20,287 nt of DNA. It comes from a virus. A program made the translations under genes and the position numbers. The stretch lies in the IMG/VR virus record IMGVR_UViG_3300031626_000026, positions 1 through 20,287 of that record, one strand, 5' to 3'. A model generated the notes under the pieces. It was given only the letters and a program-made list of their open reading frames with translations, did no database searches and was not told the origin of the DNA. Below, piece after piece: positions 7,140 through 12,350 of this stretch. Each line of letters opens with the position of its first letter. Position 1 is the stretch's first letter.

Positions 7140-7607
7140 ATGAAAGATCAATTAAAACAAGTTTATTTCTCACTTGATGAGGATAACATTTATATCGGCT
7201 ATATATTAGAAAACAACTTTTGGAATGGTTGGCTTTCTCCTTATGTAACTAAAGAAGTTTATGATTCAATAATTCATTACTACACAGTTGAACGTAAGTT
7301 AGATCCTGAAGGCCGAAACTATTACGAGGATGAAGAAAACCCTTGGCTTGATTTAGCTAAAATAGAGCCAAACAAAGACGGACTTTATGACGTATCACAT
7401 GGTTTCTGTTGGTCTGAAGTTGAGTATCTATCCGAAAACCATGCAACAGACGAGCAAGTTCTAAGATTATATAGTGATCTTGTAAGCCTTGGTAATCAAA
7501 TGGTTGCAGAGAGTAAGCTAGATCAATCAAAAATATACTTTGCAAAACTACTAGAAGTTAATGACGTAGTAAAAGCTAGAAACCTATCAGTTGAGGAGTG
7601 GATATAA
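7140..7607 (+). CDS. Acidic protein of unknown function upstream of ArdA (155 aa)
   Basis: A 155-residue protein with 30 acidic and 14 basic residues by my count, so strongly negative. The segment FWNGWLSPYVTKEV near residues 27-40 resembles small plasmid- and phage-encoded proteins I recall with WNGW-CPYFTKE-type motifs, whose function is unknown to me. A second aromatic patch is GFCWSEVEYL near 88-97. The start ATG at 7140 has AAAGG 8 bases upstream, provided by the hairpin leader. The stop overlaps the ardA start in TAATG, so the two are translationally coupled. Acidity and coupling to ArdA suggest another antirestriction-type DNA mimic, but this is inference; a housekeeping accessory role is possible. 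Confidence 0.75.
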   Translation: MKDQLKQVYFSLDEDNIYIGYILENNFWNGWLSPYVTKEVYDSIIHYYTVERKLDPEGRNYYEDEENPWLDLAKIEPNKDGLYDVSHGFCWSEVEYLSENHATDEQVLRLYSDLVSLGNQMVAESKLDQSKIYFAKLLEVNDVVKARNLSVEEWI

Positions 7608-8143
7608 TGACACAAGCGCAATTAAAAGAAGATTTAAACCAAGTAACATTATATGCTCAACCTTATGACTTAGATGCACAAGGCTTTTACTTTGATAGCT
7701 TTGAAGATTATGAAACTAAGTATAATAAAAACTGTAATGTTTATGGTCAATTTGTTGAAGAATACGAGATTCAATTCATTGATGGCTCTGTCATTAACTC
7801 TGCTTTATTTGATGCAGTTGGCTCATATAATCTTAAAGCTTATTACAAGGTTGTAAATATTTGGGATGATTTCGAAAAAGTAGATTTAATTATTTCATAT
7901 AAAGATAATATTACAAGTGAGCCATTTAACGAGGATATAGAGCCAAATGACTTAGATATAGAAGTATATTATGACATGACGTTTAGAGAATTAGCTCAAG
8001 AGTTTATTGATGATGGTTGTCTTGGCGATATTCCTAAACACTTAGAAAATTATATTGACGTTGATAAGTATGCCTATGATCTAAAGATGGATTACAACGA
8101 GTTTAGACTTGGCAGTACAACTTTAATTTATAGGAGTATGTAA
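7607..8143 (+). CDS. ardA: Antirestriction protein ArdA
   Basis: A 178-residue DNA-mimic protein that blocks type I restriction enzymes by occupying their DNA-binding groove. The N-terminal part (TLYAQPYDLDAQGFYFDSFE, residues 13-32), the middle motif VEEYEIQFIDG and the C-terminal motif ENYIDVDKYAYDLKMDYNEF followed by LIYRSM match the ArdA family in order. By my count there are 37 acidic and 13 basic residues, as expected for a mimic. A longer frame begins with GTG at 7598. I prefer ATG at 7607 because GAGGAG lies 8 bases before it and it overlaps the upstream stop in TAATG. The gene would protect incoming phage DNA from host restriction and fits with the methyltransferase encoded elsewhere in the window. 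Confidence 0.92.
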   Translation: MTQAQLKEDLNQVTLYAQPYDLDAQGFYFDSFEDYETKYNKNCNVYGQFVEEYEIQFIDGSVINSALFDAVGSYNLKAYYKVVNIWDDFEKVDLIISYKDNITSEPFNEDIEPNDLDIEVYYDMTFRELAQEFIDDGCLGDIPKHLENYIDVDKYAYDLKMDYNEFRLGSTTLIYRSM

Positions 8144-9710: not shown

Positions 9711-10087
9711 TACTTGCGCTCATTTCTTAGTTTGTAATCCATCATGTTTAACCACTCTAAACGATCAAATCCAGATATGTGATCGAGGTTAGCAAGTAAA
9801 TCTTTATAAGCATCAACTGAATAACGTGGCCTTAACTTTTTAAGAACTCGTCTTTGTAATTCATCAATAGGAAACTTTGCACTTCGCTCGACTGCGGCAA
9901 CGTAATATTGGTTGGATTTCTTTACAGTCATCTTAGCTAAGTTCTTTATCTTAGCTAAGTTCTTTAACTTAGCTAAGTTATCTAAGTTATTTTCTTTAAT
10001 AAAAGGTTTATCATTATTGCTAAGTTGTGCGCTAAACTTAGCTACATGATCTTGCTTTAAAGAAATTATACTGTCATCACTTTTCAT
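9710..10087 (-). CDS. Protein with NLAKxK tandem repeat, function unknown (125 aa)
   Basis: A 125-residue basic protein. Residues 37-52 are a short tandem repeat (NLAKLKNLAKIKNLAK) encoded by an 18-base DNA repeat. The N-terminal part is polar and probably disordered. The C-terminal half (YYVAAVERSAKFPIDELQRR, VLKKLRPRYSVDAYKDLLAN) is helical and may be a folded DNA-binding domain, though I recognise no family. The start overlaps the upstream DUF6378 gene by 11 bases; the stop overlaps the next start in TAATG. Its place in the early operon between DUF6378 and DUF6362 hints at replication or regulation, without direct evidence. Confidence 0.65.
   Translation of the reverse strand: MKSDDSIISLKQDHVAKFSAQLSNNDKPFIKENNLDNLAKLKNLAKIKNLAKMTVKKSNQYYVAAVERSAKFPIDELQRRVLKKLRPRYSVDAYKDLLANLDHISGFDRLEWLNMMDYKLRNERK
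9931..9984. repeat. 18-bp tandem repeat, three copies, each with a 10-bp palindrome
   Basis: Units at 9931-9948 and 9949-9966 are identical (TCTTAGCTAAGTTCTTTA); 9967-9984 is a diverged third copy (ACTTAGCTAAGTTATCTA). Each contains the perfect palindrome CTTAGCTAAG. The repeat lies inside the coding sequence of the 125-residue protein in the reading frame that gives NLAKxK. It could be simple slippage or a set of iteron-like binding sites. Confidence 0.75.
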
Positions 10088-10358
10088 CTGTCAATCCTCC
10101 GAATAGAAATAAATAGTTTGCAGCATCCCATATGTGATCGCTATCTGGCTTCCCGCAATCGATACGAGCTAGTTTCATCTCCACTAATATTTTTGTTATA
10201 TCGGCAGCAGTTATCTTTTTACCAGGGGCAAGTTTATTGCCCAGGCTTAGATTCACTCTTGCAGCTATGTTGTTATAAAGTGGCTTATAATCTCCTAGCT
10301 TGTCTGCTCTATCTTTTAATATGATTGCAGCTTGTTCAGCGTGTTGTTGCGGTTTCAT
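10077..10358 (-). CDS. DUF6378-like protein
   Basis: A 93-residue protein resembling DUF6378. The N-terminal pattern AAIILKDRADKLGDYKPLYN, then NIAARVNLSLG, KITAADITKILVEMKLARI, and the ending DSDHIWDAANYLFLFGG line up with the family pattern as I remember it (R-x-x-x-GDY, an LxKLAR-type helix, then a final D-x-x-x-Y helix). The family is common in phages of alphaproteobacteria and in marine phages. Its biochemical role is unknown to me. The start overlaps the stop of the PAPS-reductase-like gene in ATGA, and the stop overlaps the following gene by 11 bases, so it is part of a tightly packed early operon. Confidence 0.72.
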   Translation of the reverse strand: MKPQQHAEQAAIILKDRADKLGDYKPLYNNIAARVNLSLGNKLAPGKKITAADITKILVEMKLARIDCGKPDSDHIWDAANYLFLFGGLTDEK

Positions 10359-11173
10359 TCAGTACAATCTCCCTCTTTTGTTTGACAAAAATAGCCTTGC
10401 TGGTCAAAAACCCAGTCTTGTTGATTAGTAATAAAATCATTAAAATTAGATAAGTTTCTATCTCTATTAAATTGTTTGTTTGTGATCTTTTCCATATCTA
10501 GCCACCATTTAGCCTTGTTTGGAAATTCTTTAAATAAGATAGCTAATTGGGATTCGGATTTAAGAAAACAACCATCACAGTTACCCATAATAGTTTTCCC
10601 ATTAACTACTGGCAGTCTTAATTTAAAGGTTTGCTTTAACCAAAAGCTTTCAACATCAATTAACTTATCATCTGCTAAAACCATGGGATAATAAGGGTAA
10701 TAGCCTTGATCTAATTTATCTTTCATTCTTTTTTTTTCGTCAGCTCTAATGCCTAAACAGTTGTTCCAGTTTTTCCAACCTAATGATTTTAAATATTTAC
10801 TAGCTGTTTGTATTTTTAATATACCAGTACAATATCTTTGTAAGGCATTAGGCAATCTGCCATATCTTAAAATAACTTTTTTAAATGGCTCACCATCACG
10901 ACTAGCTGAGTTATGATTAACTTCTTTAAATGTATTTTTGCCATCAACTTCATTATATTCTAACCAAGTAACCTTAACATTCCATCTATCAGAACATTCT
11001 TGAACAAAGTCTAATGTTTGCTCCATCTCACGACCAGTATTAGTAAATATAACTTTAGCTCTATTTGGCAAACCATTATTAGCTTTAAGTATTTCATGCA
11101 GCATAAAACCACTTGTGCGACCACCGCTAAAACTTATCTGTACATTGCTATCTGGTAACTTGTAGTCACTCAT
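10355..11173 (-). CDS. Phosphoadenosine-phosphosulfate-reductase-like (PP-loop) protein with Cys cluster
   Basis: A 272-residue protein of the PAPS reductase superfamily, which binds ATP-like or adenylyl-sulfate nucleotides in a PP-loop. The loop is SFSGGRTSG at residues 14-22. Downstream are RYCTGILKIQ (C115), a CDGC pair (C199, C202) and YFCQ (C263), four cysteines spaced as in superfamily members that hold an iron-sulfur cluster; C270 is a fifth. Phage members are often called PAPS reductase, but the true substrate is usually unknown. Nucleic-acid thiolation (DndC-like) is one possibility. The frame can extend to TTG at 11185, but ATG at 11173 has GAGGG 6 bases upstream and overlaps the methyltransferase stop by 8 bases, so I choose it. 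Confidence 0.82.
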   Translation of the reverse strand: MSDYKLPDSNVQISFSGGRTSGFMLHEILKANNGLPNRAKVIFTNTGREMEQTLDFVQECSDRWNVKVTWLEYNEVDGKNTFKEVNHNSASRDGEPFKKVILRYGRLPNALQRYCTGILKIQTASKYLKSLGWKNWNNCLGIRADEKKRMKDKLDQGYYPYYPMVLADDKLIDVESFWLKQTFKLRLPVVNGKTIMGNCDGCFLKSESQLAILFKEFPNKAKWWLDMEKITNKQFNRDRNLSNFNDFITNQQDWVFDQQGYFCQTKEGDCTE

Positions 11174-12350
11174 TTTTACCCTCAATCTCTTTAATAGCTA
11201 ATCCAATCCGATAGGTTATCTGTGGCAATAAGGCATTGCCTAACTGCTTTAATCTGTCTGCTCTGTATTCATTCTTATGAGTTGTTCGTTGGATATGTCT
11301 GGGTTCGTCCAGCCATCCGGAAAGCCCATCAAATATTCCACGAAACCTGGCGAAAGTTTCCCCAATCCCTCTTTCTGATACATCTCCACCGCTAGGTCTT
11401 TCTGTCTGCCCTTCTCTATTCTGTTCTCGTAATACTCGTTGTTCCCATTGTAACTGTGTTTCCCCAGACCTGCGTTTGGAGTTGACCAAAACACTCTCCT
11501 GGGCAAACTGTCTCGTTTTCGGTTCTCTTTCCAATTCGCTATGTTGCCCGTGTCCTTGTAATCCCTCGCTGTTGGTGTTGGCCACATCTGCACCTTGTCT
11601 GCTAGATTCAGACCATGACTCTCCCCGCCATTTGGTGATATTCTTCGGTTGTTCTTGTTCAATTTCATGCTTGGATGTTCTGTTTCTTGTGTCGTTGGGG
11701 TTGGCCACAACCATTCTTTCATCCTTGGTGGTCTGAGTGTCGTTCCATTCATCATGGCTTGAGCTTCTTTCTCCGTTAGCTCCCCTCTCTCCACTAGATC
11801 TCTCATTATCAACGTCTGACCCTCGCTCGCATGACCAAATCCCTTGGTTGTCGGAGTTGGCCATGTTCTTGCAGATGATCCAGAGTCTATCCCTTTTGTG
11901 GGGGCGGAAACCCGCAGCTGGAACAATAAATGTCGCTGTGGCGTAATCAAGTGATCCCATTTGGCTAAGTACCTTGTCGAGGCCGAGCGAAATGTGTCCA
12001 TAAACATTCTCGAAAACGCAGTAAGTGGGTCTTGTTTGTGCAACAATTTCTGCAATGTGCGGGAAGATGTGGCGAGGATCTTCTTCACCTCCCCTTTTCC
12101 CGCTTGCTGAGAAAGGTTGGCAGGGATAGCCGCTTGAGAGGATGAAGGGTCTTTCGTGAATAAATCTTTTTGGGTCACTCGCTATTTCCTTTACGTCATT
12201 GGCTATTGGTATTCCTGGAAACCTAACTCTTAATAATTTTCTAACCTTTTCATCAAAGTCGCATAGCAAAACTGGCTCAGATAGCTCGGCTGCAATAAAG
12301 CCAAGGCTAAAGCCACCAATGCCAGAACATAAATCAACATGAGTCCTCAA
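11166..12350 (-). CDS. DNA cytosine-5 methyltransferase
   Basis: A 394-residue enzyme that transfers a methyl group from S-adenosylmethionine to C5 of cytosine in a specific DNA sequence. Motif I is DLCSGIGGFSLG (residues 6-17). Motif IV is SSGYPCQPFSASG (72-84) with catalytic Cys at about 77. Motif VI is FENV (113-116), motif VIII is KRDRLWII (152-159) and motif X is RADRLKQLGNALLPQI (363-378). Residues 163-340, where the target-recognition region lies, are polar and low in hydrophobics, with recurring (V/M)AN(S/P/T)-type segments. The start must be TTG at 12350: an in-frame stop lies 4 codons upstream and motif I begins within six residues. It overlaps the previous stop in TTGA. It probably methylates phage DNA against host restriction. 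Most of it is overprinted by a second frame (next entry). Confidence 0.92.
   Translation of the reverse strand: MRTHVDLCSGIGGFSLGFIAAELSEPVLLCDFDEKVRKLLRVRFPGIPIANDVKEIASDPKRFIHERPFILSSGYPCQPFSASGKRGGEEDPRHIFPHIAEIVAQTRPTYCVFENVYGHISLGLDKVLSQMGSLDYATATFIVPAAGFRPHKRDRLWIICKNMANSDNQGIWSCERGSDVDNERSSGERGANGERSSSHDEWNDTQTTKDERMVVANPNDTRNRTSKHEIEQEQPKNITKWRGESWSESSRQGADVANTNSEGLQGHGQHSELEREPKTRQFAQESVLVNSKRRSGETQLQWEQRVLREQNREGQTERPSGGDVSERGIGETFARFRGIFDGLSGWLDEPRHIQRTTHKNEYRADRLKQLGNALLPQITYRIGLAIKEIEGKNE
11249..12178 (-). CDS. Overprinted 309-codon gene inside the methyltransferase gene (WPTP-repeat protein)
   Basis: This frame lies wholly inside the methyltransferase gene on the same strand, shifted by one base, yet it reads like a real family. 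It has LLFQLRVSAPTKGIDSG (residues 84-100) and W(P/S)TP motifs at 106-110, 158-162, 199-203 (WPTPTARDYKD) and 231-235. Its C-terminal block is LSPGFVEYLMGFPDGW (275-290). I recall these blocks, in this order, from phage and bacterial proteins annotated as hypothetical or methyltransferase-associated. The start is GTG at 12178, with AAAGGA 8 bases upstream. The WPTPTARDYKD codons are the shifted reading of VANTNSEGLQ in the enzyme. The function is unknown. It may be a protein partner of the enzyme, or a by-product of conserved DNA in the other frame. Confidence 0.5.
   Translation of the reverse strand: MTQKDLFTKDPSSSQAAIPANLSQQAGKGEVKKILATSSRTLQKLLHKQDPLTAFSRMFMDTFRSASTRYLAKWDHLITPQRHLLFQLRVSAPTKGIDSGSSARTWPTPTTKGFGHASEGQTLIMRDLVERGELTEKEAQAMMNGTTLRPPRMKEWLWPTPTTQETEHPSMKLNKNNRRISPNGGESHGLNLADKVQMWPTPTARDYKDTGNIANWKENRKRDSLPRRVFWSTPNAGLGKHSYNGNNEYYENRIEKGRQKDLAVEMYQKEGLGKLSPGFVEYLMGFPDGWTNPDISNEQLIRMNTEQTD

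Follow-up and report, generated by a model that had tools for sequence, protein, structure and literature searches.

The described system closest to the locus reported here is M.EcoHK31I, reportedly the subject of work by Lee, Kam and Shaw in 1995. The small gene of M.EcoHK31I is nested in its large gene in the other reading frame. The enzyme needs two polypeptides; the large subunit contains motifs I-VIII and X together with a predicted TRD, and the small subunit contains motif IX (PMC3404938). In M.AquI, the alpha subunit contains motifs I-VIII and the beta subunit contains the distal variable region and motifs IX-X (PMC3404938). A survey of P. larvae phages reports two cytosine methyltransferase genes, in passages that do not mention nesting (PMC6070908). 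Paenibacillus phage Diva has an annotated nested pair of the type investigated here (g49/g50, 'g49 internal gene'), for which the record gives no function or subunit relation. A search of a literature that excludes most subscription journals found no paper describing the nested phage family.

We have analyzed a window of 20,287 nucleotides (IMG/VR virus record IMGVR_UViG_3300031626_000026) in which a methyltransferase frame (alpha) encloses a second frame (ORF2, or beta). The window alpha resembles the large subunit of M.EcoHK31I in having motifs I-VIII and X without IX, motif IX is carried by beta, and nesting in another frame is likewise shared by the window family. The two systems differ in that the predicted TRD of M.EcoHK31I is on its large subunit, whereas the region between motifs VIII and IX in the window is constrained in the beta frame. 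Compared by description, the phage family resembles a variant of the M.EcoHK31I type that is widespread and whose recognition region would be read from beta. The break that M.AquI has after motif VIII and ahead of the variable region is also found in phages Phanphagia (65/66) and Vash (32/33) and at locus L104, whereas the window and most of its relatives keep motif X on alpha and have a nested beta. Babsiella gp54 and PFR1 ORF45 share with the window a WPTP-type variable region followed by motif IX (EWMMGxPxGxVT) and match phrog_1008 and phrog_116; unlike the window, they hold every motif in one chain and one frame. The PHROG 1008 profile itself, labelled 'DNA methyltransferase', runs into motif X, which the split relatives have as well and which lies on alpha in the window.

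Results

Because genes for a terminase, portal, capsid, integrase and repressor-like protein are present, the window looks like a temperate phage. The alpha ORF (11166..12350, minus strand, 394 aa, TTG start) encodes a C5 cytosine methyltransferase (PF00145, 1.5e-30; phrog_363, 7.8e-48), and its alignment to M.HhaI covers motifs I-VIII (1.6e-13). On the minus strand, motif I (DLCSGIGGF) lies at 12309..12335, motif IV with the catalytic PCQ at 12108..12131, the ENV of motif VI at 12003..12014, motif VIII (KRDRLWII) at 11874..11897 and motif X (RLKQLGNALLPQ) at 11220..11255, where the end of beta runs over the first codons of the motif. The first-pass annotation had listed motifs I, IV, VI, VIII and X, and all five were found in alpha. 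Measured against PF00145, alpha has motif I, the catalytic PCQ, ENV and motif VIII; the ten motifs do not lie on one chain, as motif IX is found in the +1 frame only.

ORF2 (12178..11249, minus strand, 309 aa, GTG start) is read in the +1 frame relative to alpha and lies wholly within it. Residues 13-296 of its 309 match positions 40-284 of the phrog_1008 profile (5.5e-25). A putative Shine-Dalgarno sequence, AAAGGA (12187..12192), is positioned 8 nt before the GTG over alpha Lys-Glu codons, and an in-frame TAG occurs 6 nt 5' of the start. From the start of the frame, an overprinted N-terminal part leads to a conserved segment (STRYLAKWDHLITPQRHLLFQLRVSAP, 11900..11980) with two predicted strands, which lies over alpha motifs VI-VIII. 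The variable region (11468..11863) contains four W(P/S)TP units, three WPTP and one WSTP, and the alpha linker reading of these bases consists of VAN(T/P)N-type repeats. Motif IX (KLSPGFVEYLMGFPDGW, 11309..11359), assigned by profile alignment, is read as linker in alpha. The two frames share nucleotides at WPTPTARDYKD (11552-11584, beta) and VANTNSEGLQ (11556-11585, alpha) and, at alpha motif VIII, at GIDSG (11879-11893, beta) and RDRLW (11880-11894, alpha). The earlier description of this frame, including its length, start codon, upstream AAAGGA, repeats and shared codons, was thus verified in coordinates and sequence.

The openness of the second frame is not due to chance, because synonymous recodings of alpha never held it open: none of 20,000 recodings gave an open +1 frame of 309 codons, and their longest +1 open runs had a median of 41-44 codons and a maximum of 289. 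The +2 frame contains 23 stops across the same stretch. The ORF2 observation is real and neither chance nor artefact.

A substitution test evaluated selection on the two frames. It used 53 close, mutually disjoint pairs (49 viral; the four bacterial pairs gave the same direction), counted isolated substitutions only and was bootstrapped over pairs. The resulting pairwise omega values are counting estimates rather than the output of a full dual-frame codon model. Upstream of beta, omega_alpha was 0.05 [0.04-0.07] and omega_beta 0.94 [0.50-2.27]; downstream of beta, the values were 0.05 and 0.93. From the beta start to motif VIII (R1), both frames were under purifying selection (omega_alpha 0.08; omega_beta 0.17 [0.11-0.23]), and from motif VIII to the beta end (R2) omega_alpha rose to 0.68 [0.47-0.99] while omega_beta was 0.05 [0.04-0.07]. 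Purifying selection on the beta frame in close relatives begins at the beta start codon and finishes at the beta stop codon, and codon-position rates flip at the borders of the overlap. Alpha-synonymous changes that create beta stops occurred at a relative level of 1.4-1.6 outside the overlap and at zero inside it, which is the opposite of the second-frame stops in close relatives that would have spoken against the frame. Alpha stops were found nowhere in the close pairs, linker included. In the actinophage group beta stops were likewise absent, in a sample of only 18 pairs of mixed architecture. Both frames code for protein across motifs IV-VIII, and we regard dual coding of the locus as practically certain. 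Between motifs VIII and IX, selection acts on the beta frame and leaves alpha nearly free, so that alpha need only remain open to reach motif X. This near absence of amino-acid constraint makes the alpha linker between VIII and X look like a newcomer.

Beta initiation was examined in relatives as well. All 84 close relatives start beta at ATG or GTG, and in nearly all of them an AAGGAG-like site precedes the start by about 8 nt. AAGGAG or AGGAGG precedes the beta start in 127 of 219 unique loci, compared with 1.6% of control +1 ATG/GTG codons, and the alpha Lys-Glu pair at this position is encoded by AAG GAG in 121 of 139 homologues, against about 18% expected from background usage. A beta-frame stop lies no more than five codons upstream of the start in 173 of the 219 loci. 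The conserved start, the Shine-Dalgarno sequence and the nearby upstream stop favor internal initiation of beta over a frameshift at the VIII/TRD junction.

Beta carries motif IX (LSPGFVEYLMGFPDGW), and alpha lacks it. The conserved C-terminus of beta, LxPxFVEYLMGFPxGW, sits where motif IX belongs. A 59-sequence beta profile matched motif IX of single-chain actinophage C5 methyltransferases (E=5.8e-8), and the C-termini of these single-chain enzymes in turn gave a nearly gapless alignment with standard C5 methyltransferases across motifs IX-X (E 4.9e-5). Direct comparison of the beta profile with standard C5 motif IX gave a weak match in the same columns (E=0.016), and HHalign of full beta against the full standard C5 alignment recovered eight columns only, exactly motif IX (P 0.068). 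The alpha C-terminus aligned to motif X alone of standard C5 methyltransferases, not to IX (E=5e-5). GVPDRVDR, which occurs near alpha motif X, was considered as alpha's own motif IX and rejected, both on this alignment and on its absence from the window. Beta had no domain in a Pfam search and no match up to E 10 in a PDB profile search. AlphaFold2 gave poor models for beta (15-sequence alignment; pLDDT 45) and for a compact family member, L018 (59-sequence alignment; pLDDT 65, pTM 0.28), and Foldseek yielded no PDB match below 0.001. Judged by its sequence, beta is in all likelihood an enzyme subunit providing motif IX and the variable region. Its position and constraint suggest that beta may also be responsible for target recognition.

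Relatives of the locus were found in virus contigs, bacterial genomes of many phyla, isolated phages and plasmids. By uniform six-frame HMM classification, beta lies over alpha in the +1 frame at 255 of 258 loci. This relation and the phrog_1008 match bear out the conservation of both readings in other phages that the first-pass annotation had stated. A widespread dual-coding gene is supported, and the dual-frame selection results reject the alternative of a widely propagated false family. At two of the three remaining loci (L104 and L152) the beta ORF continues into motif X, and at the third (L100) the beta model gave no detection, the WPTP frame being visible by eye. No beta stood without alpha at any of the 258 loci; phiKX1_290 and Rctr197k_201 are standalone in annotation only, as each has an alpha in the other frame that was left out of the annotation. 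The first-pass annotation had listed such a lack of methyltransferase-free homologues as partial refutation. With no such homologue among the 258 loci, beta does not look like a gene overprinted de novo and able to exist by itself, and the lack is expected of an obligate nested subunit. Of 299 genomes surveyed in a single phylum, four had phrog_1008; all four matches overlap an alpha match, which a stop breaks in one genome.

Several loci depart from the common pattern. At L022 a single TGA interrupts beta close to the end of a contig, and alpha matches are spread over two ORFs at L120, L126, L150 and L166. At L023 (1888-3192), a close relative, alpha is full of linker stops and cannot reach motif X; the L023 beta has an inserted helix-turn-helix-like segment in the same stretch. 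When a scan with Phanphagia gp66 was pooled with the annotated phage loci, 39 loci were single-chain and 17 were split. Babsiella gp54 and PFR1 ORF45 (PF00145 profile 20-312) have the TRD-IX-X block joined in frame to motifs I-VIII, whereas the block forms a second, overlapping chain that carries X in Phanphagia 65/66, Vash 32/33 and Embleya. Several single-chain actinophage loci have motif IX in frame 0 while their +1 frame still reads WPTP without IX. Motif IX is therefore not bound to beta everywhere, and pieces appear to move between frames.

Discussion

We propose, with a probability of roughly 0.85, that the overlapping frames of the locus yield the two polypeptides of a single DNA cytosine-C5 methyltransferase. 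The computed results show that each frame is coding and under selection, that an initiation signal of its own precedes beta and that the motifs are partitioned between the frames. Alpha, in frame 0, would be the catalytic half, contributing the SAM-binding and catalytic motifs I-VIII plus X, and its linker to motif X would be nearly free sequence that must only stay open. Beta would be started at the internal Shine-Dalgarno sequence and GTG in the +1 frame and would supply the small domain, made up of a target-recognition-type variable region, in which the WPTP repeats lie, and of motif IX. By analogy with M.EcoHK31I, alpha and beta would be expected to assemble into the active enzyme, whose activity would depend on beta, and methylation of the phage DNA would probably be protective against host restriction.

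Selection on ORF2 demonstrates dual coding and not function, and beta has no detectable fold; some relatives, moreover, pair a complete single-chain enzyme with a +1 WPTP frame that lacks IX. These observations would suit a translated overlapping gene for a separate phage protein, such as a regulator, an anti-restriction factor or a methyltransferase chaperone. We consider this unlikely, given that beta has the motif IX that alpha lacks, that relatives have the TRD-IX-X block in cis and that no beta was found apart from alpha at the 258 loci. Among the roles initially suggested for the second frame (partner, regulator or artefact), a partner fits best, in the form of a subunit of the same enzyme. 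The existence of single-chain relatives also raises the question of a programmed ribosomal frameshift that would join motifs I-VIII to the WPTP-IX frame and leave beta alone incidental. The +1 constraint starts at the internal start codon instead of the VIII/TRD junction (omega_beta 0.17 across R1), the Shine-Dalgarno sequence and start codon are conserved with a +1 stop just upstream, and alpha stays open through the linker with motif X under normal selection, which a frameshift product would not need. A frameshift is accordingly quite improbable.

The second frame might also be an annotation artefact that simply follows from conservation of the methyltransferase codons, as could be suspected from the inconsistent annotation between records and from the fact that two frames of one conserved stretch are always somewhat correlated in similarity. 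This reading is refuted at the sequence level by the dual-frame selection test: omega_beta is 0.05 where alpha is nearly unconstrained (0.68), and beta-stop-creating changes are missing inside the overlap only. The excess of AAG GAG at the Shine-Dalgarno position also stands against it, and we give this explanation almost no credence.

Returning to the two-subunit enzyme, the initial suggestion that WPTP-type proteins arose by overprinting of methyltransferase genes holds for part of ORF2 only. Its N-terminal approximately 100 residues are overprinted on the older motifs IV-VIII. The WPTP/IX part is an ordinary C5 variable region plus motif IX, in frame in the single-chain phage relatives, and is not overprinted. 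The old portion thus seems to be a different one in each frame, amounting to reciprocal overprinting. Depending on the frame, the repeats of the variable region can be read as VAN/VAD-type or as WPTP-type units. Speculatively, small indels could shift recognition units between alpha and beta, and so between cis and trans; nested, split and single-chain loci might then be interconvertible states of one enzyme and the overlap a device by which target specificity is changed.

The two-subunit reading unites scattered 'hypothetical' and duplicate 'DNA methylase' annotations as one enzyme with two overlapping subunits, and the locus is a case of strong dual-frame selection across a long nested overlap. 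The presence of single-chain, split and nested architectures makes the origin of the overlapping genes directly testable. Gene callers that forbid overlaps miss half of the enzyme, and existing records call alpha only, beta only or both. At L294, L295, L297 and L298, the submitters' annotation is confined to all or part of the beta frame, and the conserved methyltransferase frame is unannotated.

Additional observations concern the surroundings of the locus. The window encodes an ArdA antirestriction protein (7598-8143, plus strand; PF07275, 2.2e-7), and its presence alongside the methyltransferase suggests that the phage has two anti-restriction strategies. The first 20 nt of a PAPS-reductase-like gene (10355-11185, minus strand; phrog_424, 4e-46) coincide with the end of alpha, and in phage C72C1 (L101) a PAPS reductase gene also follows shortly after the methyltransferase. 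A DUF6378 protein (10077-10358, minus strand; 3.6e-10) also matches a PHROG labelled phosphofructokinase, a doubtful label. Among the bacterial relatives, the chromosome of one Roseovarius MAG (OX638333.1; L129-L133) contains five copies of the nested locus, as if from five related prophages or from assembly duplication.
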